From Lachnoanaerobaculum orale (GTDB lineage: Bacteria > Bacillota > Clostridia > Lachnospirales > Lachnospiraceae), in NCBI RefSeq assembly GCF_003862485.1, contig NZ_RRCM01000001.1, positions 1,729,734 to 1,793,733 on the forward strand: DNA of 64,000 bases, in the 5' to 3' direction. The translations under genes were made by a program, and so were the position numbers. This document shows positions 42,098 through 52,933 of this stretch, one piece after another (positions within the stretch are counted from its first letter, which is position 1; each line of letters starts with the position of its first letter). A model generated the notes under the pieces. The model was given only the letters and a program-made list of their open reading frames with translations. It was not told where the DNA came from and made no database searches.

Positions 42098-42892
42098 CTA
42101 TTTCCTCCACGTCTTACTGGGCGGGATACCGAAATATTTTTTATACAACCTGCTGAAGTAAAGCGGATCCTGATAGCCTACATTTATAGAGGCTTCAGTA
42201 ACCGACATTCCGTCAAGCAACATCTTGGCCGCCTTTCTGAGTCGGAGCCTTATAAGATAATCAATAGGTCTAATATTGTAGATTTTATTGAATGTATATG
42301 AAAAATGTGCCTTGTTCATATCTGCGGCAAGAGCCAAATCTTCAAGTCTCAGACTCTTTTGATATGAGCTTTCCATCAATTCTATAGCATTTTCAATCTG
42401 CATTATTTCCTTATCAGGCATCGAATAACAAAAAGAACTCAGTATCAGCTGTCCGGCTATCATCCTGCTTCTGATTTGATCGTCAAAACTTACACTGTTT
42501 GCACATTTTTTGAGCTTAGAGAGTAATTCAGATGTATTTTCCTTATTAAATTCACTTATTTCATATGCCGTATTCATTATATCGCTGCATCCGTGCCAAG
42601 GATTTTCAGGATCGTAATAGATATTTAAATGCACAAAAGGCACATCCGAAACTACACTAAAATCTATTTTCTGATTACTTGCACCATGTACTATCGTATT
42701 TTCGTCCGCCGTAAAACTTTCATCATTAAATTGTACCAAGGCCTCTCCGGATAAAGTATAGATAAATGCCGAGTGAACTGTATCATATGAGATATGCATT
42801 CCCACATCCTTACTTTGTAGAGAAATCCCGGTAATAAAATATTTTCTTGCACTGTACTCCTTTTGACAGCTTATCAGGAAATCCTTTTCCAT
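42098..42892 (-). CDS. AraC-family transcriptional regulator
   Basis: This 264-residue regulator has an N-terminal cupin-like sensing domain (about 20-130) and a C-terminal AraC double helix-turn-helix (about 165-262). The second helix-turn-helix is marked by VTEASINVGYQDPLYFSRLYKKYFGIPPS. AAGGGG precedes the ATG. It is divergent from the iron-siderophore operon, with 136 bases between, so it most likely controls that operon, perhaps in response to the siderophore. Confidence 0.9.
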   Translation of the reverse strand: MEKDFLISCQKEYSARKYFITGISLQSKDVGMHISYDTVHSAFIYTLSGEALVQFNDESFTADENTIVHGASNQKIDFSVVSDVPFVHLNIYYDPENPWHGCSDIMNTAYEISEFNKENTSELLSKLKKCANSVSFDDQIRSRMIAGQLILSSFCYSMPDKEIMQIENAIELMESSYQKSLRLEDLALAADMNKAHFSYTFNKIYNIRPIDYLIRLRLRKAAKMLLDGMSVTEASINVGYQDPLYFSRLYKKYFGIPPSKTWRK

Positions 42893-43028: not shown

Positions 43029-44060
43029 ATGACAAGGAATAAGACCGATATAAAGTTTAATATATTATTGATTGTACTTTTTATAACCTTGGTATTTTCA
43101 CTGCTGTCAGGTATATCTTTAGGCGCCGTAAGAATAAGCCTGAAAGATACCTACTCAACCATACAATCAAATCTGTTCCATATAAATGCGGCAAGTTTGT
43201 CAAAATCAACTATGGCTATTGTATGGAATATAAGAATACCCAGAGTGATTATGGGGCTTATAGTAGGTGCGGGGCTGGCACTCTGCGGAACTGTAATGCA
43301 GACCACTGTAAACAACCCTATTTCAGAACCGTATATTCTCGGTATCTCCGCCGGCGCTACATTCGGCGCTACATTCTTTATAATACTGGGCCTTAAATCA
43401 ATGACAGGAATAGGTGCATTCTTCGGCTCCGTTATATCCACAGCCATAGTTATGTTTATCGCATCCATAGGTAAAAATATTACTACAACCAGCCTGATAC
43501 TTTCGGGTGCTGTTGTAAACGCTTTATTCAGTGCATTTTCAAACTTTATCATATCAATAGGAGCAAACTCCGACAGTATGATGACCATCAAGTTTTGGAC
43601 TATGGGATCGCTGGCAAGTGCAACATGGGCAGATATTCTTCTTCCGCTTTTTGTGGTACTTATCTCACTTATATTTTTTATGACACAGTACCGCACAATG
43701 AATACCATGCTTATGGGAGATGAGGTAGCCATAACACTTGGCATAAATCTTCAAAAGTACAGACTTGTCTATATGCTGTTTATATCAATGATTACAGGAG
43801 TGCTTGTAGCAAAATGCGGAATTATAGGTTTTGTGGGACTTATCACCCCACATATATCCCGCATTCTTATCGGCACCGACCACAAAAAAATCATTCCGCT
43901 CTCAGCCTTGCTTGGAAGCCTGTTTGTGCTTTGGGCCGATATACTTGCCAGATGCCTGATAGATAAGGCGGAGTTACCTATAGGTATATTCACCTCACTG
44001 GTCGGCGGACCTTTCTTTATATATATTGTTATAAAAAATCAGAAAGGCGGTCAAAGATAA
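43029..44060 (+). CDS. FecCD-family iron-siderophore ABC permease
   Basis: This 343-residue inner-membrane protein has about nine or ten membrane helices and is the permease of a BtuC/FecCD-type importer for ferric siderophores, haem or cobalamin. Family motifs include RIPRVIMGLIVGAGLALCG, a conserved NPISEPYILGISAGA segment and GFVGLITPHISR. AAAGGATTCTT precedes the ATG. It overlaps the ATPase gene by one base (TAATG). Only one permease gene is present, so it probably works as a homodimer. Confidence 0.94.
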   Translation: MTRNKTDIKFNILLIVLFITLVFSLLSGISLGAVRISLKDTYSTIQSNLFHINAASLSKSTMAIVWNIRIPRVIMGLIVGAGLALCGTVMQTTVNNPISEPYILGISAGATFGATFFIILGLKSMTGIGAFFGSVISTAIVMFIASIGKNITTTSLILSGAVVNALFSAFSNFIISIGANSDSMMTIKFWTMGSLASATWADILLPLFVVLISLIFFMTQYRTMNTMLMGDEVAITLGINLQKYRLVYMLFISMITGVLVAKCGIIGFVGLITPHISRILIGTDHKKIIPLSALLGSLFVLWADILARCLIDKAELPIGIFTSLVGGPFFIYIVIKNQKGGQR

Positions 44061-44815
44061 TGGATTTAACTTGTAAAAATATATCCTATTCCATAAAGGA
44101 CAAGCAGATATTAAAAAACGTGTCTCTTAATGTTTCCGGAAACAAGTTTTTTACAATACTCGGTCCTAACGGCTGTGGAAAGACAACCCTTTTAAAGACT
44201 ATCTACAGAGTATTAAAGCCGACCTCGGGAGAGATTTTATTAAACAATAAAAATATTGAAAACATCAGGCTGAAGGACTCTGCAAAAGAGATGGCTGTGG
44301 TGGCGCAGTTCAATGAAATAAATTTCGACTGCAATGTGGAGGATATCGTTATGCTTGGCAGAAGCCCGCATATAAGTTTTTTGCAGTCTGAAAAGCAAAA
44401 CGATTTTGATATTGTAGAAGACGCCTTAAGAGATGTGGGAATGCTTGACAAGGCAAACCGCTCCTACTCCTCACTTTCAGGAGGTGAAAAGCAAAGAGTG
44501 GCTTTGGCCAGAGCTATAGCACAAAAACCTTCGTTACTTTTGCTTGACGAACCTACAAACCATTTGGATATCAAATATAAGCTTGAAATACTTCATATTA
44601 TAAGGGAGCTTAATATAAATGTACTTGCGGTACTTCACGATATTCAATTGGCATGTAAGTTTTCAGATTGTCTATTTCTTATGAAAGGGGGTGAAATAAA
44701 GTACGAGGGTATACCGAGACAAACTGTAACAGAAAGTTCAATGAAAGATGTATATGGAGTAAATTGTAAAATATCATGGACTGACGACAACCAAGCCATG
44801 ATTGAATATATTTAA
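44060..44815 (+). CDS. Iron-siderophore ABC transporter ATP-binding protein
   Basis: This 251-residue FepC/FecE-type ATPase energises the adjoining permease. It has Walker A GPNGCGKTTLLK, signature YSSLSGGEKQRVALARA, Walker B LLLDEPTNHLDI and H-loop AVLHDIQLACKF. It lies between the permease (one-base overlap) and the binding protein (17-base gap). Confidence 0.95.
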   Translation: MDLTCKNISYSIKDKQILKNVSLNVSGNKFFTILGPNGCGKTTLLKTIYRVLKPTSGEILLNNKNIENIRLKDSAKEMAVVAQFNEINFDCNVEDIVMLGRSPHISFLQSEKQNDFDIVEDALRDVGMLDKANRSYSSLSGGEKQRVALARAIAQKPSLLLLDEPTNHLDIKYKLEILHIIRELNINVLAVLHDIQLACKFSDCLFLMKGGEIKYEGIPRQTVTESSMKDVYGVNCKISWTDDNQAMIEYI

Positions 44816-44832
44816 AATGAAAGGAAAAAATA

Positions 44833-45882
44833 ATGAAAAAGATTCTAAACTTAACTTTAACAACTTGTATAGCACTTGCAATTGTAGGATGTGGAAGCAC
44901 CAATACTACAAAAGAAAGCTCCTCCACAGAGCAGGCTTCTACAACCGTTGAAAGCACTGCGGCACAAAGTAAATCCGAAAGCACAGCAGACGCTAAAGAG
45001 ACCACATATCCTGTCACAGTTACAACATATGATGCCGACGGCAAGGAGATATCACAGGTATTTGAAAAGGCTCCGGAGCGAGTAATCACAAACAACTTAT
45101 CTTCTACCGAAATGCTTATAGACCTTGGATTACAGGATAAAATAGTCGGAATGTTAAATCCCGACAATGAAGTAAGCTCCGACTATGCCGCAGCTATCTC
45201 TTCCATACCTCATATAGGTGATAAGAAGAGCGTATCCAAGGAAGTTGTGCTTTCAAACACTCCTGATATACTTATCGGAAGAAATATGATGTTCTTAGAT
45301 AAATCTCTGGGCAGTGTGGATACCTGGAATCAAAACGGAGTACCTGTATACACTCAAAAAGCTTCCGTTTCAAATATGAAGCAAAGTCTTGAAAGCGTTA
45401 TTGACGATGTGAAAAATATAGGTATCATCTTCAATATACAGGACAAGGCAAATGCTTATGCTGATGAATTACAAAAAAGAATCGACGCCGTAACAGCCGC
45501 AAACAAGGCTAATGCCGGTGAATTAAAGAACGCCCTTATTATGTGTGCATACAACGACCAGACCTTCGGTGCTTATAAGTCCGCATTGCAGGAGAGTATC
45601 CTTAATACACTCGGATATACAAATGTTGCAACAGGTACATCGGACCTCACTCTTGAAAACCTTGTTACCATGTCTCCTGAAGTTATAATCTATGTTACAA
45701 GTGACAGAAACAAGGAACTTGACGCCAAGGCAGTCGACCTTATGAAAGCCAATGCGGTAATCTCCGAGGTTCCTGCAATAAAGAACGACAAAATCATGAC
45801 CATCTCATATGATGAGTTTATGGACTACGGTACTTCTTCAATAAACGCGTTGGAAGATATCAACTCATTCTTAAATAAATAG
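44833..45882 (+). CDS. Iron-siderophore-binding lipoprotein
   Basis: This 349-residue extracellular receptor belongs to a BtuF/FepB-type importer. A lipoprotein signal peptide ends at IVGC with Cys at residue 20. A Ser/Thr/Glu-rich spacer (about 21-55) follows, then the class III binding domain, beginning around APERVITNNLSSTEMLIDLGL. AAAGGA lies upstream of the ATG. The ligand is probably a ferric siderophore, as the next gene encodes an esterase typical of siderophore systems; haem is less likely. Confidence 0.93.
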   Translation: MKKILNLTLTTCIALAIVGCGSTNTTKESSSTEQASTTVESTAAQSKSESTADAKETTYPVTVTTYDADGKEISQVFEKAPERVITNNLSSTEMLIDLGLQDKIVGMLNPDNEVSSDYAAAISSIPHIGDKKSVSKEVVLSNTPDILIGRNMMFLDKSLGSVDTWNQNGVPVYTQKASVSNMKQSLESVIDDVKNIGIIFNIQDKANAYADELQKRIDAVTAANKANAGELKNALIMCAYNDQTFGAYKSALQESILNTLGYTNVATGTSDLTLENLVTMSPEVIIYVTSDRNKELDAKAVDLMKANAVISEVPAIKNDKIMTISYDEFMDYGTSSINALEDINSFLNK

Positions 45883-45883
45883 T

Positions 45884-46534
45884 ATGTTCGATACAAAAAT
45901 ATCCTTGCCTGACAACTATAATGAAGAAAACAGATATCCTTTGATCCTTTTAAATGACGGCGAAATAAACTATCTGGGAGATTTAAAAGATAGAGCCATA
46001 TTGGTGGGGTTGATACCACAAAACAGATTGGATGCCTTCACACCTTGGAAGGCACACAATTTAAAACCCTCCACGCCTGATTTTGGAGGAAAACTGGATG
46101 AGTACCACAATCAGGTGTTTGAGCATCTGCTTCCTGAGTTATTGTGTAAGTACAGCATTGATGAAAGTAAAATCGCCTACGGCGGCTACTCACTTGGCGG
46201 ATTGGCGGCGGTATACAGTCTGTATACCGCCGGTGCTCCAAGTATTATATTTTCACTCTGTGGCTCGTTTTGGTATCCTCAATTCTTAGATTATTGTGAG
46301 AACCATGATGTACTTAATAAAAAAGCATCTCTTTATTTGCAAAACGGCAAGACTGAGGGCATCAAACACAACAATATACTTTCAAACGCACCGATACTTT
46401 CCGCCAGGCTCCACGAACTTCTAAGTGACAGATTGGATAAAGTCACATCTGTCTTTGATGAATACGGGCACCACGAAAATATCGCAGGAAGATATAAAAA
46501 TCTTATTGATTGGCTGAAAGAAAATTTAAAATAA
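45884..46534 (+). CDS. Alpha/beta-hydrolase, putative siderophore esterase
   Basis: This 216-residue member of the esterase D/Fes group has the nucleophile elbow AYGGYSLGGLAA (Ser at about residue 105). A likely catalytic His lies in the YGHHENI segment near the C-terminus. There is no signal peptide. It starts one base after the stop of the binding-protein gene, without a clear ribosome binding site, so translation is probably coupled. From context it may hydrolyse imported ferric siderophore to release iron inside the cell. Confidence 0.82.
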   Translation: MFDTKISLPDNYNEENRYPLILLNDGEINYLGDLKDRAILVGLIPQNRLDAFTPWKAHNLKPSTPDFGGKLDEYHNQVFEHLLPELLCKYSIDESKIAYGGYSLGGLAAVYSLYTAGAPSIIFSLCGSFWYPQFLDYCENHDVLNKKASLYLQNGKTEGIKHNNILSNAPILSARLHELLSDRLDKVTSVFDEYGHHENIAGRYKNLIDWLKENLK

Positions 46535-46582: not shown

Positions 46583-46840
46583 CTAATCATAATGTCCTTT
46601 ACATGAAACTATATATATAATGCCCGACTGTTCATAGTATACAATTCTGTTAGTATCATCAATCCTTCTACTCCAAAATCCCGAAAGACTGTCCTTTAGA
46701 GGTTCAGGCTTACCAATTCCTTCAAATGTATTTCTCTTTATATCTTTTATAAGTTCGTTTATCTTTTTCAGCGTTCTTTTATCTTGTCTTTGCCAATACA
46801 AATAGTCATCCCATGCCCTGTCTTCCCATAGAATACCCAT
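46583..46840 (-). CDS. YoeB/Txe-family mRNA-cleaving toxin
   Basis: This 85-residue RelE-superfamily ribosome-dependent endoribonuclease is of the YoeB type. It has the family features WEDRAWDDYLYW at the N-terminus, PEPLKDSLSGFWSRRI in the middle, and the catalytic His-Tyr pair in the last residues (CKGHYD). Its ATG overlaps the antitoxin stop by one base, the usual toxin-antitoxin order with the antitoxin first. GAGGTGG precedes the start. Confidence 0.92.
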   Translation of the reverse strand: MGILWEDRAWDDYLYWQRQDKRTLKKINELIKDIKRNTFEGIGKPEPLKDSLSGFWSRRIDDTNRIVYYEQSGIIYIVSCKGHYD

Positions 46841-47109
46841 TATTCCACCTCAATCAAATCATGCTGTGAAAACTTTGCTTTACCGCTCTTTATATCGTCC
46901 ATCATTCCTTCAAGATAACGAATATTGCTTTCAGAATAGAACGGGTCAAGTGATAATTCAAAAGGAATGCGTTTTTCCCTTGCAACCTTTTTTGCAAAAA
47001 TAGTAAAGGCGGCACTCATAGAAAGTCCTAATTGTGAACATACCTGCTCCATGTCTTTTTTATCTGTTTCATCTAAATAAAAATTTATGTTTGTCTGTGT
47101 ATGTTGCAT
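46840..47109 (-). CDS. RelB/DinJ-family antitoxin
   Basis: This 89-residue antitoxin has a ribbon-helix-helix N-terminus (TNINFYLDETDKKDMEQVC, then LGLSMSAAFTIFAKK) that would bind its own promoter, and a C-terminal tail expected to wrap the toxin. The ATG at MQHTQT is chosen because GAGGAGG lies eight bases upstream; a longer frame adds six codons over that site. A YoeB toxin paired with a RelB/DinJ-type antitoxin rather than YefM/Phd is a fairly common mixed pairing. Confidence 0.9.
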   Translation of the reverse strand: MQHTQTNINFYLDETDKKDMEQVCSQLGLSMSAAFTIFAKKVAREKRIPFELSLDPFYSESNIRYLEGMMDDIKSGKAKFSQHDLIEVE

Positions 47110-47221
47110 TGATAAACCTCCTCTCATAACCTTAAAATAAGCTCAATACTTTATATAACCATATTACTTATATTTTTATACTATGTCAACATTATACAGA
47201 TACCCGCTTTTTCAACAACAC

Positions 47222-47250
47222 AAAAAACCTCCCGGCAAGCACCGGGAGGT
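47222..47250 (-). terminator. Rho-independent terminator of hcp
   Basis: Nine-base GC-rich arms (ACCTCCCGG and complement) with a six-base loop are followed by TTTTTT on the minus strand. It lies 13 bases past the hcp stop codon. Confidence 0.9.
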
Positions 47251-47262
47251 CGTTATATATTA

Positions 47263-49113
47263 TTATCCAAGCATATTTAATCTGTCGATAAGCTCATTTA
47301 CATCGATACCGTGTACCATAGCGGCCTCTGCAAGTGACTCCATCTGTGATGATGGGCATCCGAGGCAGTGCATACCGATATCCATAAGAACGCTTGCCGC
47401 TGCAGGATTCTCTGCAAGAACCTCACCGATAAGCATATCAGGATTGTACTTTCCCTCAGCTGCAGGCTTCTCAACCTTTCCGAAGAAAAGCTCGATATCA
47501 TCCTCAACTGTTCCGATACCTGCAATACCGAAGTTCTCAACCAAAACCTTAGCTACATTTGGTGAAAGGAATCCCGGAAGTGTAGGTCCCAGGTGAATAT
47601 TCTTTACACCTAAGTATAAAAGTGCAAGTAAAACGATAACAGCCTTCTGCTCATACCATGCAATGTTGAACTCAAGCGGAAGATCGTTGATATCGTCAAG
47701 TCCGAATACTTCCTTAAGCTTAAGTGCGATAACTGCAAGTGAGTAAGAGTCATTACACTGTCCTGCATCAAGAACTCTAGGAATACCGCCTATATCTCCA
47801 AGGTCAAGCTTGTTGTACTTATACTTTGCACAACCTGCTGTAAGGATAACCGCATCCTTCGGAAGAGCCTTAGCAAAATCTGTGTAGTAATTTCTTGCCT
47901 TTGAACGTCCGTCACAACCTGCCATTACAACAAACTTTGAAATAGCACCTGACTTAACAGCGTCAACTACCTTATCTGCAAGTGCAAGAACCTGTGCATG
48001 AGCAAAACCGCCTACGATGCTTCCGCTCTCAATCTCTGTAGGAGGTGCACACTTCTTAGCCTGTTCGATGATCTCTGAGAAATCCTTCTCCTCACCGATA
48101 TCACCTGCGATATGCTTACATCCCGGATATCCTGCAGAACCTGTTGTATAAAGTCTGTCGATGTAGCTTGCCTTAGGCGGAACGATACAGTTTGTAGTCA
48201 TAAGGATAGGTCCGTTGAAGCTCTCAAACTCTTCTTTCTGCTTCCACCAAGCATTACCGTAGTTACCCTTAAGGTTAGGATACTTCTTAAGCTCAGGATA
48301 ATACTGACCTGCAAGCATCTCTGAGTGAGTATAAACATCCACTCCGGTTCCCTGTGTCTGCTTTAAGAGCATCTCAAGGTCTCTTAAGTCATGTCCTGAA
48401 ACAAGGATACCGGGATTCTTACCTACACCGATATCAACTGTTGTGATCTCAGGGTTACCGTAAGCTGTTGTATTAGCCTTGTCAAGTAAAGCCATACCGT
48501 TTACACCGTACTTACCTGTCTCAAGTGTAAGAGCTACCAAGTCGTCTACGCTTAAGCTGTCATCAAGTGTTGAAGCCAATGCTCTCTGTAAGAACGCATC
48601 AACCTCACCGTCATCCTGTAAAAGTGCATTTGCATGCTTTGAGTATGCTGAAAGTCCCTTAAGTCCGTATGTGATAAGCTCTCTAAGGCTTCTTACATCC
48701 TCATCCTTTGTTGCAAGAACACCTACTGTAGATGCCTTGTCAAGGTACTCGCTTTCATCAAATGACTCCCAAAGAGCAGCCTCAGGAAGATTGTCCTTAT
48801 TTGAAAGTTCGTTTAAAAGCTCCTTCTTAACTTCAAGTGTCTTCTTAATTCTTGCTGTAATAGCATCATTGTCGAAGTTTGCATTTGTAATTGTGATGAA
48901 AAGGTTTAATGTAACAAGGTGGTTTACTTCCTTGCTTACTTCCTTACCCTCTGCACGAAGTCTTGTTGTTATAGCTGATATACCCTTACTTACATAGATA
49001 AGTAAATCCTGCATCTTTGCAACTTCCGGCTTCTTACCGCATACACCTACCTGTGTACATCCTGTATTACCTGCTGTCTCCTGACACTGATAACAAAACA
49101 TTTTGTTTTCCAA
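47263..49113 (-). CDS. hcp: Hybrid cluster protein with C-terminal DUF1858 domain (TTG start)
   Basis: Hcp carries a hybrid iron-sulfur-oxygen cluster and acts as a hydroxylamine or nitric oxide reductase in nitrosative stress. This 616-residue protein is longer than the usual ~550. N-terminal Cys 7, 10, 19 and 25 (Cx2Cx8Cx5C) hold the first cluster, and conserved [22 protein letters not shown] and DAGQCNDSY segments hold the hybrid cluster. Residues from about 550 form a DUF1858 domain with a CLGC pair (583, 586), usually found as a separate hybrid-cluster-associated disulfide protein. The TTG start has GGAGG six bases upstream; the ATG four codons later is too far from it. A palindromic site lies upstream. 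Confidence 0.95.
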
Positions 49114-49203
49114 TTTATACCTCCTCTTACTATGACTGAAATTCAGTCTATGAGCAATCTGATTAACAGATTTAATTTTTATTCTTCTGCATCACTGCAT
49201 GGC

Positions 49204-49248
49204 ATTATAATATCAGATTAAAAGTCTAAAAACTGTAACTTACATTAC
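49204..49248 (-). promoter_or_regulatory. hcp promoter with Crp/Fnr-type palindrome
   Basis: The palindrome GTAA-CTTACA-TTAC (49235-49248) lies upstream of a minus-strand TATAAT (complement of 49204-49209). An alternative TATTAT is three bases nearer. No -35 consensus is present at the expected spacing, as expected for an activator-dependent promoter. The palindrome centre is 32-35 bases from the -10 centre, close to the geometry of class II Crp/Fnr activation. The regulator encoded immediately upstream is the obvious candidate. Confidence 0.6.
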
Positions 49249-49263
49249 CGAGCGATGTTTTTT

Positions 49264-49935
49264 TTAAAGACTTTTAAGTCCTTCAAGATTTTTTACAATC
49301 AAATCTTTTCTAACCACCTTTATAAATCCGTCATCCTGCATCTTCATAAGTTCTCTTGAGAGTGAAGGCCTTGCAGCATTCAAAAAGTCCGCAAACTCTT
49401 CTCTGCTCATCTTTAAAGTAACTCTGTCTCTCTCATTCATATTTTGAAGTATGAATCTTGCAATCTTTTGCCTTAATGTTGAGCATGAAAGTACCTGTAA
49501 TCTGTTATTAAGATAAAAGGTTCTTTCGGCAAAAATTGTAATCATATTTGAGAGCATTCTGCTCTGTAATGCTGACGGATTTGCACCCGGCCTTGTAAGA
49601 TACTCCTTCGGTATCTCCAAAATCTTACTTGGTGAACTTGCATAGGCATAGTTCACATATTCATTATGATTTAAGAAAAGGAACACCTCACCGAAAAGCT
49701 CTCCCGGATTTGAGAACATTCCCATTATACTTCTCTTGCCGTTTACAGAGTCGTTACCTATAGATACACTTCCTTCCACAAGCATTGTAATATATCTGGG
49801 TGTATCTCCCTGATTAAATATTGTCTCACCTTTTCTGAATCCGACAATATCAGCCTTCGCTTCCTTTAAGCAAAGTTCTATCTCTTCTTCTGTCATTCCC
49901 CTAAAGAGTGGGGATTGTGTATAACTTCCTGACAT
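49264..49935 (-). CDS. Crp/Fnr-family regulator (HcpR-like by context)
   Basis: This 223-residue regulator has a cyclic-nucleotide-type sensing domain (about 15-130), a long dimer helix and a C-terminal helix-turn-helix (MSREEFADFLNAARPSLSREL). It lacks the N-terminal Cys cluster of classical Fnr, so it does not sense oxygen through that iron-sulfur cluster; haem-NO sensing as in HcpR proteins is possible. GGAG precedes the ATG. The start overlaps the ATPase gene by 43 bases, and a later ATG would cut off the conserved SPLFRGM region. It is the last gene of the operon and lies directly upstream of hcp. Confidence 0.9.
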   Translation of the reverse strand: MSGSYTQSPLFRGMTEEEIELCLKEAKADIVGFRKGETIFNQGDTPRYITMLVEGSVSIGNDSVNGKRSIMGMFSNPGELFGEVFLFLNHNEYVNYAYASSPSKILEIPKEYLTRPGANPSALQSRMLSNMITIFAERTFYLNNRLQVLSCSTLRQKIARFILQNMNERDRVTLKMSREEFADFLNAARPSLSRELMKMQDDGFIKVVRKDLIVKNLEGLKSL

Positions 49936-50927
49936 AATTCTCCTTCAAGCGTCATACCCGCACGCAGTCTCTTTCTAGCTTCTTGCATAATTTCATCAAT
50001 ACTGTTCAGTTGCACCAAAACTTCCTTTTCCTCTGCGGTTGTCTCTATGATTTTGTCAATTCCGCCGTTTTTGATAACTATTCTTCTATCGGCCATCAAC
50101 GCCAAAAGAGGATCATGAGTAGCCATAAGGACAATCTTGTCCTGTGAAACCAAAAGATCCAGTGCTTTCTTTCTGTCTATTCCGGCATTTTCTATCTCAT
50201 CTATCAAAACTATAGGTGAAGAGCTAAGCACTGCAGTATCTGCAATCATCAGCGCTCTGGATTGTCCTCCGCTTAGAGCCGTAACCGCAGTCTCAGGTGC
50301 AAAATTCTCACCTGCAAGCTTATTTGCCTCTTTCAATATCTTCTCAACTGTAGCCTCGATATCCTCAATCATTCTGCTTTCGGCATGCATAGTTATAAAT
50401 TCACGGGCTGTAAGATCCATAACAAAATTCATATTTTGTGAAAGTTGTGCAACCAATTTATTATTTGTCGAATATCGCCATTTGGGATCCGGTTTTCTAC
50501 CATTTATATATATGGTACGACCGGTAGGGGTATCATTTTGTGCTGCCCATTCAATATCAGCCAACAATCTACTTTTTCCGGACCCTGTAGCTCCAACTAT
50601 AGACACAATTTGTGAAGAAAATATGTCTAATTTTTGAAATCTTTCTTTTTCTCCACTTTTGTTATGACCGGGGAAAATAGTTAAACTTTCTATATTTTCC
50701 CTTTTATCACCAAGGAATTGTAACATTTGTTCGATGAATGTGTCAAGACGGTTTTTTATTTCTTTCTTATCTATTGCCTTATCTTCCAGCTCTTCTTGTG
50801 ATATATTATCCAAAAATTCTGAAAATGTAAGACTAAGACTGCTGTCTATACAAAATCCCGTACTTTCAAAAAAATCACTCACAAACGGATACTTTTCAAG
50901 TAATTCCCCAAGCTTTAATTCACTCAT
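49893..50927 (-). CDS. Soluble ABC-type ATPase with N-terminal DUF1858-like domain
   Basis: This 344-residue protein has a DUF1858-like N-terminal domain (about 1-65; LGELLEKYPFVSDFFESTGF). The ABC ATPase core has Walker A GATGSGKS at 112-119, signature LSGGQ at 218-222, Walker B IVLIDE at 239-244 and His 271 in the H-loop. It has no membrane segments, and no permease is encoded nearby, so it is probably not a transport ATPase in the normal sense. GGGAGG fixes the ATG at MSELKL, which overlaps the GTPase stop by eight bases. No family name was recognised. It may drive a conformational step on a partner protein. Confidence 0.8.
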   Translation of the reverse strand: MSELKLGELLEKYPFVSDFFESTGFCIDSSLSLTFSEFLDNISQEELEDKAIDKKEIKNRLDTFIEQMLQFLGDKRENIESLTIFPGHNKSGEKERFQKLDIFSSQIVSIVGATGSGKSRLLADIEWAAQNDTPTGRTIYINGRKPDPKWRYSTNNKLVAQLSQNMNFVMDLTAREFITMHAESRMIEDIEATVEKILKEANKLAGENFAPETAVTALSGGQSRALMIADTAVLSSSPIVLIDEIENAGIDRKKALDLLVSQDKIVLMATHDPLLALMADRRIVIKNGGIDKIIETTAEEKEVLVQLNSIDEIMQEARKRLRAGMTLEGELCQEVIHNPHSLGE

Positions 50928-51621
50928 TTTTATCCTCCCACTGCATTTTCTTTGTGTTTCCAAGCTGATAGTCCTCGCCTATCCTTGTCTCACCCAAACA
51001 ATAGGAACACATAGCCGAAGGCATTGCAAACCTAAGTTTCATTCCTTGTACCGATTTAATGTCTATATTATTGTCATATATTAAGGTGGAAAGTTCAAAA
51101 GCTCCCTGACCGCTAAGTCCGTTTACATTCATGACCATGGCCCTCGGATTTACCGCACAAACTCTACCGCTGAATACTTCCCTCTCCGCCTGGCTCACTA
51201 TATCACCCTTTGTAATAACCACTATATCTGCAGACTTAAGCATAGGACCTATCTTTTTAGGTGTATTGATACCTGAAAGATTGTCTATCACACATACTCC
51301 CTTTATATCGGTAATATACGGTGAACAACGATTACAAAGTCCTGCCGATTCGGTTATAAGTAAGTCCAGTTTTTGGTCATTTCCCCATTTTACCACATCT
51401 TCTATATTTGATGCAAAGAAATGATCCGGACAAAGTCCGCCTGAAAGTCCCTTTTTTACAGGAATATTTGCTTTTTCATATATCGCATCATCATCTGTAT
51501 ACAGGCAGTCAAACTTCACAACTCCCGCCTTTATCCCCCTGCCCTGCATGGCTTCAATAGTCTTTAAAATAACCGAGGTCTTTCCTGATGAGGGAGGACC
51601 TGAAAATATAACCAGATTCAT
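50920..51621 (-). CDS. HypB/UreG-like GTP-binding protein with CxxC motifs
   Basis: This 233-residue P-loop GTPase of the SIMIBI class resembles the nickel-insertion GTPases HypB and UreG. Walker A is GPPSSGKT (8-15). A metal-switch-like segment follows (KFDCLYTDDD), then an ESAGLCNRC segment with Cys 96 and 99 in the place of the HypB ENVGNLVCP-like motif, and a G4-type TKGD (137-140). A C-terminal CSYC pair (205, 208) may bind metal. It starts one base after the solute-binding-like gene. It is cytoplasmic. A role in metal or cofactor delivery is inferred from fold and context only. Confidence 0.8.
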   Translation of the reverse strand: MNLVIFSGPPSSGKTSVILKTIEAMQGRGIKAGVVKFDCLYTDDDAIYEKANIPVKKGLSGGLCPDHFFASNIEDVVKWGNDQKLDLLITESAGLCNRCSPYITDIKGVCVIDNLSGINTPKKIGPMLKSADIVVITKGDIVSQAEREVFSGRVCAVNPRAMVMNVNGLSGQGAFELSTLIYDNNIDIKSVQGMKLRFAMPSAMCSYCLGETRIGEDYQLGNTKKMQWEDKNE

Positions 51622-51622
51622 A

Positions 51623-52840
51623 CTACTCCTCTCCGTAAAACCACTTTTCGGTATTAGTCAAAATTTCACCTATATCATTTGAGCGTATAAAATCCCATCC
51701 CGCCCAAAGGAAATTTTGACTTTCTTCCAATTTATTGTCATACTCAGGATTCGTCTGTGGGAACTTACCGTCCGCACCCAAAACCTCAGCCACCTGTTTT
51801 GAAAATAAGAAATCAATAAGCGGCTTACTGTTTTCATAGTTTTTCTTCTTTGTCAAGAGAAATACCGGGCTTATAACGGCTCCGTCCTTTGGCCATACAA
51901 CCGAAAGATTTGAGTTTTCTTTGATAGTCTTTGAAAAGAAGTAAGGCATAATGCTGATTGCCGGAGTGTCAATGTCCTTTCTTCCTCCGCTCTTTACCAT
52001 CTGTGCAGGATGCATTGACTTAAGCAGTCCTCTTCCCAAAGCCTTTACACCTTCTTTTCCATACTTGGAATATATACCAAGCATTATAGCATTGAACATA
52101 TCAAGATCGGATGTAGGCAGCGCTATAGAATTTTCAAACTCTTTTTTAAACAGATCTTCCCAAGATGTCGGAGCTTTTCTATCACCTAATACAGCTTTAT
52201 TCACAATAAATATAGCCGGAACAACGCCTATTATAGAATATTCTCCCTCCGGATCTTTTACCGAAATATTTTCATTATCTAAAGATTTATTTAATTTTCC
52301 GATTCTGTGGTCTTTAAATACGCCTTTATCTCTAAATCTGCCCATATACTTATTATCAAAGAAAAGATTAAAGCCTGCAGACATATATATATCCGAGAGA
52401 TCGTCCTCAGTCTTTGCATTCATTATTTCAGCTTCTATAGCATCCATACCCATGCTTGCCGCATTAAGATTATAGTTTATCTTATAATCCTGACTCTCTA
52501 CAAACTTTTCAAAGCTTTCAATGAACTGCATCCTCACAGGACATGGCAAGATACCCTTTATAGATACTTTAGCATTTTCGTCAACATTTTTTACAATCCC
52601 GTTGTTGTCCGTCATATCCGACTTTCTCTCGATAGCCTCTACTAACTGCTTCTCGAAAACATCCACATTTATATTCTTACTCTTAAGTGCCGTCTCAATG
52701 CTCAAAAGCTTACCCATGGATTTTCTCATCATATCATTCTTCAGATTTTCAAATCCGGCATTTGCAAGCACCTCTATAAGCTCAGGATACTTCTCGGTAA
52801 CATCATACACTTTATCTTTTATATCAAAATACTTATTCAT
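51623..52840 (-). CDS. Solute-binding-like protein without signal peptide, DUF1858-like N-terminus
   Basis: This 405-residue protein begins with a DUF1858-like helical domain (about 6-70; VTEKYPELIEVLANAGF). It continues with a type 2 periplasmic-binding fold related to iron or anion-binding proteins (PCPVRMQFIESFEKFVESQ, then VPAIFIVNKAVLGDR and APTSWEDLF). There is no signal peptide, lipobox or hydrophobic N-terminus, so it should remain in the cytoplasm, which is unusual for this fold. AAGGAG seven bases before the ATG fixes the start. It is the first gene of a four-gene operon preceded by a palindromic site. Confidence 0.78.
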   Translation of the reverse strand: MNKYFDIKDKVYDVTEKYPELIEVLANAGFENLKNDMMRKSMGKLLSIETALKSKNINVDVFEKQLVEAIERKSDMTDNNGIVKNVDENAKVSIKGILPCPVRMQFIESFEKFVESQDYKINYNLNAASMGMDAIEAEIMNAKTEDDLSDIYMSAGFNLFFDNKYMGRFRDKGVFKDHRIGKLNKSLDNENISVKDPEGEYSIIGVVPAIFIVNKAVLGDRKAPTSWEDLFKKEFENSIALPTSDLDMFNAIMLGIYSKYGKEGVKALGRGLLKSMHPAQMVKSGGRKDIDTPAISIMPYFFSKTIKENSNLSVVWPKDGAVISPVFLLTKKKNYENSKPLIDFLFSKQVAEVLGADGKFPQTNPEYDNKLEESQNFLWAGWDFIRSNDIGEILTNTEKWFYGEE

Positions 52841-52891: not shown

Positions 52892-52933
52892 ATTCTACTC
52901 TGTATACACAAAAAAGTCTGTAACTATTGTTAA
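52892..52933 (-). promoter_or_regulatory. Operon promoter with Crp/Fnr-type palindrome
   Basis: GTAA-CTATTG-TTAA (52920-52933) resembles the site upstream of hcp; both begin CTGTAACT on the plus strand. A TAGAAT -10 element (complement of 52892-52897) has its centre exactly 32 bases from the palindrome centre. The -35 region is poor, as in activator-dependent promoters. The operon it would drive encodes the Crp/Fnr protein itself, so it may be autoregulated. Confidence 0.55.

Follow-up and report, generated by a model that had tools for sequence, protein, structure and literature searches.

Three adjoining genes of Lachnoanaerobaculum orale, which encode a solute-binding-protein-like protein (SBP), a CobW/HypB/UreG-family GTPase and a soluble ABC ATPase (together, the trio), constitute a conserved, probably cytoplasmic set that is linked to hcp, the gene for hybrid cluster protein. 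The window, by which we mean the whole 64,000-nt stretch analysed here (GCF_003862485.1, NZ_RRCM01000001.1, positions 1,729,734-1,793,733), carries the SBP, GTPase, ABC, Crp/Fnr and hcp genes in that order, all on the minus strand in its ORF listing (table 1). The GTPase and ABC frames overlap, as do the ABC and Crp/Fnr frames, and a single base separates the SBP gene from the GTPase gene. ORFs and Pfam together confirm the gene set of the original prediction, namely an SBP-like protein, a GTPase, an ABC ATPase and a Crp/Fnr regulator upstream of hcp; the interval it gave, 47263..52840, already takes in hcp. Neither a description of the trio nor an experiment on it was found in the literature searched.

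Table 1. Features of the hcp-linked locus, in window coordinates.
Feature	Position	Strand	Remarks
HcpR2-type operator TTAACAATAGTTAC	52920..52933	-	differs from GTAACnnnnGTTAC at 1 position; SBP ATG follows after about 80 bases
SBP-like protein	51623..52840	-	longer ORF start 52861; DUF1858 without CxxC, then SBP_bac_6 fold
CobW/HypB/UreG-family GTPase	50920..51621	-	CPDH motif and two invariant CxxC pairs
Soluble ABC ATPase	49893..50927	-	longer ORF start 50963; DUF1858-like N-terminal helical domain
Crp/Fnr regulator, probably HcpR2	49264..49935	-	Pfam and by-eye alignment to E. coli CRP
HcpR2-type operator GTAATGTAAGTTAC	49235..49248	-	1 mismatch; upstream of hcp
hcp, hybrid cluster protein	47263..49113	-	NF003658 858.9 bits; C-terminal DUF1858 carrying CxxC
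Terminator-like hairpin	47226..47251	-	11 pairs, then TTTTGTGTTG; after hcp

Loci with related GTPases were divided into types I, II and III at 400 and 290 bits of the GTPase profile, limits that were set after gaps in the scores had been seen. Type I comprises 91 distinct loci (95 minus the duplicates L090, L155, L157 and L158), with the window standing outside this number; the SBP is present in all 91 and the ABC ATPase in 89, both misses lying at contig ends. Eighty loci were taken as the 80 best among 400 confirmed stretches, which weights the counts towards near relatives. Many loci span less than 20 kb, and gene starts are uncertain because gene calling relied on a simple script; an hcp cut off at the end of L069 was left uncounted, and L093 has its ABC gene in fragments. 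The hcp gene lies inside 44 of the 91 loci, in layouts that include trio-ZN-hcp (16), trio-Crp-hcp (10), trio-hcp (8) and hcp-crp-trio (7) among others. When 25 of the 47 hcp-less loci were followed up (L090 stood for its duplicate L034), 23 of the 25 genomes proved to have hcp elsewhere, one of these cases (G555) being a partial match at a contig end; hcp was not found in G552 (Parvimonas) and G554 (a MAG), both of which have the trio. A small zinc-ribbon gene, whose product has a weak HypA match below the cutoff, follows the ABC gene in 20 of the 91 loci, and in 18 of these hcp is next. Beyond the trio, hcp, Crp/Fnr and this zinc-ribbon gene, no other gene cluster was seen in over 10 loci of the 91-locus recurrence set, which included five type II loci.

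The set, which might have turned out to occur only in a few close relatives or among unrelated neighbours, is widespread, with hosts from Lachnoanaerobaculum through Lacrimispora, Tissierella, Pectinatus, Halanaerobium and Peptoniphilus to Treponema parvum; its position beside hcp (44 of the 91 loci) and the HcpR-type operators that the two share (below) bear out the linkage that the original prediction proposed. In less biased samples, type I was present in 7 of 148 genomes of the class, at 72% identity or more, and in 10 of the 398 genomes of the phylum, our own genome being in both, and hcp was in the locus in 3 of the 7 and 9 of the 10. PF03063 matches (CO dehydrogenase, CODH, included) occur in 322 of those 398 phylum genomes and are thus far commoner than the type I GTPase (10 of 398); E. 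coli, the control in the search for hcp elsewhere, has Hcp, and to our knowledge it has no such trio, so Hcp needs no trio in general.

The window Hcp has PF03063 (594 bits) and a C-terminal DUF1858 domain (74.3 bits) with its CxxC, and it is well above the cutoff of 367 for the hybrid cluster protein model NF003658. The second PF03063 protein of the genome was rejected as an Hcp; it is a partial protein that matches CODH (TIGR01702, 426.9 bits, cutoff 478). All 44 Hcps inside type I loci are of the CxxC-QE(T/A) form, a figure that stands without a background rate, and the link to this subtype is not strict, since three of the 23 unlinked genomes (L092, L096 and L100) show only the other form, EQT.

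The SBP consists of DUF1858 (PF08984, 63.9 bits, gathering threshold 32.2) and SBP_bac_6 (PF13343, 258.7 bits). It had been described as free of a signal peptide and, judged from hydropathy alone, it has no hydrophobic N-terminus: the best 12-residue value within its first 45 residues is 0.85, as against 2.38 in a lipoprotein SBP of the same window. Stretches of 19 residues reaching at least 1.6 elsewhere in the protein were seen in 26 of the 91 type I SBPs; these say little, because the window Hcp has one too (1.86). The CxxC that is the redox-disulfide hallmark of DUF1858 (TIGR03980) is absent from the first 80 residues of all 91 SBPs, and Cys100 is invariant in 41 aligned members. When the SBP model was submitted to Foldseek, ferric-binding proteins made up 12 of the 20 best matches; the top single match was a PLP-binding protein, and proteins that bind phosphosugars or polyamines were interspersed with the iron binders. 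Ferric-binding proteins of the FbpA type ligate Fe(III) with a pair of tyrosines, and at these positions the SBP has Phe-Phe, with Tyr300 adjoining, in a weak alignment judged by eye. Given these other matches and the Phe-Phe, the SBP ligand may not be iron.

The HypB/UreG-like GTPase with CxxC pairs that had been predicted is recognizable as such, in that it matches PF02492 (cobW; 47.8 bits, gathering threshold 20.7) and its CxxC pairs are invariant in 18 diverse members. Its profile matches solved HypB and UreG structures at 1.7e-11 to 1.1e-8, ranked among tandem RecA chains whose scores come only from summed weak pieces, and in these alignments Cys64 falls on a HypB cysteine that we take to be a metal ligand of HypB. 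It is neither HypB proper (TIGR00073, 50.6 bits, equivalog cutoff 121.2) nor UreG proper (TIGR00101, 29.4 bits, equivalog cutoff 204.2). The other GTPase match of the genome is a UreG-like gene within a urease operon, named by eye. The ABC ATPase (PF00005, 56 bits, gathering threshold 25) has intact Walker A, LSGGQ, Walker B and H-loop motifs, whose residues are invariant in 42 members. Its N-terminus resembles the DUF1858 of the SBP (hhalign 91% over 27 columns, with 0.1, 1.0 and 1.8% for three unrelated control segments), and its Pfam score for DUF1858 is 13.7 bits, below the 32.2 cutoff. The corresponding hhalign value against the Hcp DUF1858 is 7%, and that between the SBP DUF1858 and the Hcp copy, for which the alignment is shallow, is only 24%.

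The strongest evidence, which is also new, comes from HcpR-type operators shared by the trio and hcp, which suggest that the two are co-regulated. Passages of PMC1274295 give the HcpR2 operator consensus as the palindrome GTAACnnnnGTTAC, and the mark of HcpR2 as Pro in place of CRP Glu-181 in the recognition helix. The window regulator has the domains PF00027 and PF13545, and its recognition helix reads ARPSLSRELM. With E. coli CRP placed by eye, its Pro presumably stands at the Glu-181 position, and the regulator is probably HcpR2; in the window, sites of this type lie upstream of hcp (at 49235) and of the SBP gene (at 52920). Within one mismatch, GTAACnnnnGTTAC is found upstream of the SBP gene in 49 of the 91 type I loci and upstream of 17 of 969 other genes; Fisher values here count related loci as if they were independent. 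Where trio and hcp are unlinked, the two have one palindrome in common in 14 of 23 genomes. In five of those 14, all of the Lacrimispora group, it is GTTGTnnnnACAAC, a palindrome that was found by looking, the search for shared palindromes being open-ended; because these five genomes are relatives, their pairs may represent one event. One further exact shared pair, in L117, was taken as chance. Neither operator occurs within one mismatch at 20 of the 91 loci, and the HcpR2 site is missing from 11 of the 44 hcps located in the loci. In Halanaerobium, exact GTGACnnnnGTCAC was seen upstream of the SBP gene in 3 loci, and with one mismatch in 11; it was found upstream of none of the 44 hcps in loci.

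Diverged trios have other neighbours. FecBCD/NitT/Opp importer genes are neighbours of the type II trio in 20 of 27 loci, and in 5 the neighbours include DUF364 'heavy-metal chelation' genes (118 of 165 neighbour proteins scanned with Pfam). In one type II locus, L042, NifH and two Oxidored_nitro genes (NifDK-like) come after the trio. In type III a PF04060 Fe-S protein takes the place of the SBP in 20 of 21 loci, L192, L194 and L209 having been dropped for want of a GTPase in the gene calls; the remaining neighbours (94 of 134 type III neighbour proteins scanned) have no constant theme. A BLASTP search with the genome's CODH found no CODH among the called genes near type II trios.

Because the same DNA switch sites mark the trio and Hcp, the trio probably supplies or repairs a metal cofactor. 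Our preferred reading, to which we give slightly less than even weight, is that it is an NTP-driven metal-supply or repair module that serves Hcp under nitrosative stress. NO or other reactive nitrogen species would activate HcpR2, so that the trio and hcp are switched on together. Metal handling and NTPase action are suggested by the families of the proteins: the cleft of the SBP-fold protein would hold a metal, either as an ion or in a small complex, with Cys100 as a candidate ligand; the HypB/UreG-like GTPase would take the metal at its Cys/His sites; and an ATP-driven stroke of the soluble ABC dimer would open or release the SBP, as when an ABC importer unloads its SBP, though here with no membrane, or would remodel the client. 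We infer further that the metal is probably iron and passes from SBP to client, that the DUF1858 modules of the SBP, the ABC ATPase and some Hcps may be docking parts, and that the client is most likely Hcp, its iron-sulfur-oxygen cluster being loaded, or repaired after NO damage. A bolder form, which we think rather doubtful, would make the trio a membrane-free ABC 'importer', in which a cytoplasmic SBP-fold protein takes up a metal or metal complex and a soluble ABC dimer then passes this load to a G3E GTPase, from which it reaches a client enzyme. It would be a general intracellular cofactor-transfer machine of at least three branches. The branches of this putative machine would be the Hcp-linked, the importer/nitrogenase-like-linked and the Fe-S-protein-linked trios.

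Co-regulation requires no physical contact, and the trio may instead be a nitrosative-stress module under HcpR control whose target is not Hcp. It might trap or detoxify a small molecule, such as a nitrogen oxide product or the iron or iron-nitrosyl species that damaged clusters set free, or it might repair other Fe-S enzymes alongside Hcp. G552 and G554, with the trio and no hcp found, fit such a module, as does a Bradyrhizobium DUF1858 gene that appears in a table of NnrR-dependent genes in PMC6710368; the adjacency of hcp in several layouts and the presence of DUF1858 on both the SBP and the window Hcp speak against it, and we consider it somewhat unlikely.

That the SBP, ABC ATPase and GTPase are the soluble part of an ordinary importer whose permease is encoded elsewhere seems very improbable. 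The importer genes beside type II trios and a FecCD-ABC-SBP set near the locus on the other strand of the window (named by eye) are in its favour, as is a same-strand multi-span membrane protein within two genes in 19 of the 91 type I loci. However, genes of the four importer families tested lie within six genes in only 4 of these loci, that nearby importer of the window has its own ABC protein and lipoprotein SBP, and a hydrophobic N-terminus was flagged in only 3 of the 91 SBPs; two of these flags, in L034 and L098, are probably artefacts of the gene start or the contig edge, and the L082 stretch lies inside DUF1858. An ordinary transporter is thus not the best reading, as hydropathy gives no export signal and no recurrent permease was seen near the type I trios. 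It is also improbable that the trio is a sensing module, in which the cytoplasmic SBP would bind a signal ligand and the NTPases would gate the Crp/Fnr regulator: regulator genes of the window type do occur no more than six genes away in 20 of the 91 type I loci, and those of the type II kind in 5 of these and in 8 of the 27 type II loci, but a Crp/Fnr gene stands at the trio in only 24 of 91 type I loci. C. difficile, moreover, presumably lacks the trio. Its hcp is controlled by HcpR (PMC12915319).

The preferred reading, a metal module for Hcp, has likenesses to several known systems. With the HcpR2 regulon of anaerobes (Rodionov 2005) it shares the operator, the hcp target and probably the regulator type; hcp, frdX and some others are the targets named in the available text of PMC1274295, and the trio is not among them there. 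The HypB-like NTPase CooC loads CODH (PMC6006190, PMC9164220), an enzyme that has PF03063 in common with Hcp, and is a case of a P-loop metal-loading NTPase that serves an enzyme of this family. CooC is a MinD-type ATPase that acts alone or with CooT/CooJ, for nickel, whereas Hcp would be served by a G3E GTPase together with an ABC ATPase and an SBP. The G3E GTPases HypB and UreG, which insert Ni, resemble the trio GTPase in PF02492, in the solved-structure matches and in Cys64; the trio GTPase differs in falling far below their NCBIfam cutoffs, in its invariant CxxC pairs and in its SBP and soluble ABC partners. SufBCD/SMS also has a soluble ABC ATPase without a permease (SufC/SmsC), although its partners differ from those of the trio and no scaffold like SufB/SufD was noticed there; SmsC chains of M. 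jannaschii take 3rd and 5th place among the Foldseek matches of the ABC ATPase, a weak ranking since many transporter ABC domains score alike. Importers with ferric-binding SBPs of the FbpA/FutA class share the SBP fold and the ABC ATPase, whereas the trio has no recurrent permease or sign of export, and has DUF1858 and a GTPase.

We know of no dedicated assembly or repair factor for the iron-sulfur-oxygen cluster of Hcp, and a conserved three-protein module under an NO-linked operator is a concrete, testable candidate for one. If the SBP does work inside the cell, the parts of an importer would be reusable for cofactor transfer without a membrane. That diverged branches stand beside importer genes, nitrogenase-like genes and genes for heavy-metal chelation suggests that anaerobes have a wider, uncharacterised metal-handling family.

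The original prediction placed five genes side by side in the window, and this arrangement holds: all are on the minus strand, their reading frames abut or overlap, and Pfam agrees with the domain assigned to each. A terminator-like hairpin lies 3' of hcp. A GTPase scan of a collection of species genomes confirmed 400 related stretches; the best 80 of the 400, together with genomes from class and phylum samples, gave 95 loci with close (type I) GTPases, or 91 distinct loci once four duplicates were removed. The proposed genome search thus shows the trio of solute-binding-like protein (SBP), GTPase and ABC ATPase to be a real module, with the SBP in 91/91 loci and the ABC protein in 89 (both misses at contig ends), recurring across genera from Lachnoanaerobaculum to Treponema parvum, including Lacrimispora, Tissierella, Pectinatus, Halanaerobium, Peptoniphilus and Peptostreptococcus. 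The T. parvum GTPase (L052) is ~82% identical to Lachnospiraceae copies, which suggests horizontal transfer of the gene among mouth bacteria.

Features in the window and in related loci (L-numbers)
Feature	Location	Strand	Remarks
SBP-like protein	window 52840-51623	-	
GTPase	window 51621-50920	-	
ABC ATPase	window 50927-49893	-	
Crp/Fnr regulator	window 49935-49264	-	
hcp	window 49113-47263	-	
RelB/YoeB toxin-antitoxin pair	window 46583-47127	-	Pfam; immediately downstream of hcp
FecCD-type permease, ABC ATPase, lipoprotein SBP, possible esterase beside AraC-type regulator	window 43029-46534; 42098-42892	+; -	named by eye; resembles a set for siderophore uptake, near the trio yet separate
CO dehydrogenase of the window's genome	L044:4230-6395		N-terminus very His-rich
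Zinc-ribbon gene	L076:11697-11936		
Diverged GTPase-ABC-SBP, then NifH-like, two Oxidored_nitro (nitrogenase-component-1-like), SBP-like gene	L042:9612-16231		uncharacterised nitrogenase-like cluster

The suggested tie to Hcp is borne out both by gene position and by operators, and we state linkage and operator sharing as observations. The hcp gene is in 44 of the 91 type I loci (each side up to ~10 kb), and 38 of those 44 have it no more than 5 kb from where the GTPase gene starts. The commonest layout is trio-zinc-ribbon-hcp (16), followed by trio-Crp-hcp (10), trio-hcp (8) and hcp-crp-trio (7), with the remainder in less frequent arrangements. With the window's own genome included, hcp was in the locus of 9/10 type I genomes in the phylum sample, which was chosen regardless of hcp, and of 3/7 in the class sample. 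Among 25 genomes checked that lack hcp in the trio locus, 23 carry it elsewhere, and it was not found anywhere in G552 (Parvimonas) or G554 (a MAG).

The HcpR2 operator consensus published in PMC1274295 is GTAACnnnnGTTAC. Allowing up to one mismatch, it precedes 49/91 SBP genes, 33/44 hcp genes and 17/969 other genes of the same loci (exact matches: 38/91, 26/44 and 11/969); the Fisher value at the SBP, 2e-44, is inflated by kinship of the loci. In the window one site precedes the SBP gene and another hcp, with one mismatch apiece, and the Crp/Fnr protein appears, by eye, to carry Pro-181, an HcpR2 mark according to the same paper. Where trio and hcp are unlinked (n=23), nine genomes have the HcpR2 operator at both genes. 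Five of the 23, from the Lacrimispora group, have the exact palindrome GTTGTnnnnACAAC (GTTGT) at both SBP and hcp, a sequence present in exact form upstream of 18/91 SBPs versus 15/969 other genes. That the operator has changed in the same way at both unlinked loci suggests a common regulator in that group; since the five are relatives, the pairs may represent one event. Among the other nine unlinked genomes, L100 carries an HcpR2 site at the SBP but not at hcp, L111 combines an HcpR2 site at hcp with the GTTGT palindrome at the SBP, and the palindrome stands at the SBP exactly in L121 and with one mismatch in L092 and L117; neither is found at the SBP of L077, L090, L095 or L096. Neither operator was found in 20/91 type I loci.

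The GTPase, best conserved of the trio (72-97% identity to the window copy), is a PF02492 member (Pfam) that misses the NCBIfam cutoffs for both HypB and UreG, and was rejected as either of these proper. Eight residues are the same in all 18 members compared: Cys39, Cys64, His67, Cys96, Cys99, Cys110, Cys205 and Cys208. Of these, Cys64, part of the CPDH motif, is aligned to a cysteine of HypB. An alignment of members shows the catalytic motifs of the ABC protein to be intact, and its predicted structure (pLDDT 91.5) retrieved many ABC domains in Foldseek, with Fe-S-assembly SmsC within the first five. For the SBP (pLDDT 90.2; Cys100 invariant in 41 members) the top Foldseek hit was a PLP binder, 12 of the 20 best were ferric-binding proteins, and phosphosugar binders were among the others. 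Beyond the predicted description, Pfam finds a DUF1858 domain at the SBP N-terminus; the window Hcp has one at its C-terminal end. The SBP copy probably serves for docking or has a structural role, because its CxxC is missing in all 91 type I proteins. By hhalign the ABC N-terminus, which scores under the Pfam DUF1858 cutoff, matches the SBP copy at 91% (27 columns; 0.1-1.8% for three controls) and the Hcp copy at only 7%. After the ABC gene, L076 and 19 other loci encode an ~80-aa zinc-ribbon protein with two CxxC pairs and a weak HypA-like match below the Pfam cutoff.

The 27 loci with a type II GTPase (295-383 bits) also encode the ABC protein and, in 18 cases, a detected and mostly shorter SBP; some have a DUF364-methyltransferase-NTPase set in its place. 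FecBCD, NitT-like or Opp-like importer genes lie within six genes in 20/27 type II, 4/91 type I and 0/21 type III loci. A GTPase-ABC-DUF364/DUF4213-methyltransferase-NTPase_1 set recurs in L165, L167, L168 and L041, adjoined by FecB/FecCD in the first three and near two ThiC-like genes in L041. In type III (L186-L208; ~190-220 bits), 20/21 loci combine ABC and GTPase with a PF04060 Fe-S protein; by eye, the L199 trio adjoins Mrp-like and NifU-like genes. Neighbours linked to metals are therefore found repeatedly in distinct branches, in support of a putative metal-handling role for the GTPase-ABC pair.

Full-text searches of open-access papers found no published account of the trio; its genes may be listed in an HcpR regulon in supplementary tables or in RegPrecise. 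For the trio as a whole we infer metal handling from family membership; which metal is handled, in what order it is transferred and whether the client is Hcp are matters of guesswork. Against the reading we favour, three unlinked genomes have Hcp in the EQT form alone (Hcps of type I loci have the CxxC-QE(T/A) form), 26 SBPs of the 91 type I loci contain a hydrophobic stretch, and membrane proteins lie within two genes of some type I trios. Hydropathy reveals no export signal in any trio protein, as predicted. PF03063 proteins occur widely without the trio in the phylum genome sample, so that a strict need of Hcp for it is doubtful. The closest working analogy is CooC, which loads CO dehydrogenase, an enzyme sharing the PF03063 family with Hcp (PMC6006190 and PMC9164220). 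In the window's genome, the CO dehydrogenase gene follows acyl-CoA dehydrogenase and Etf-like genes, with a urease operon downstream (by eye). Our favoured reading, held tentatively and at slightly less than even weight, is that the trio would be an NTP-driven module supplying or repairing the metal cofactor of Hcp during nitrosative stress.
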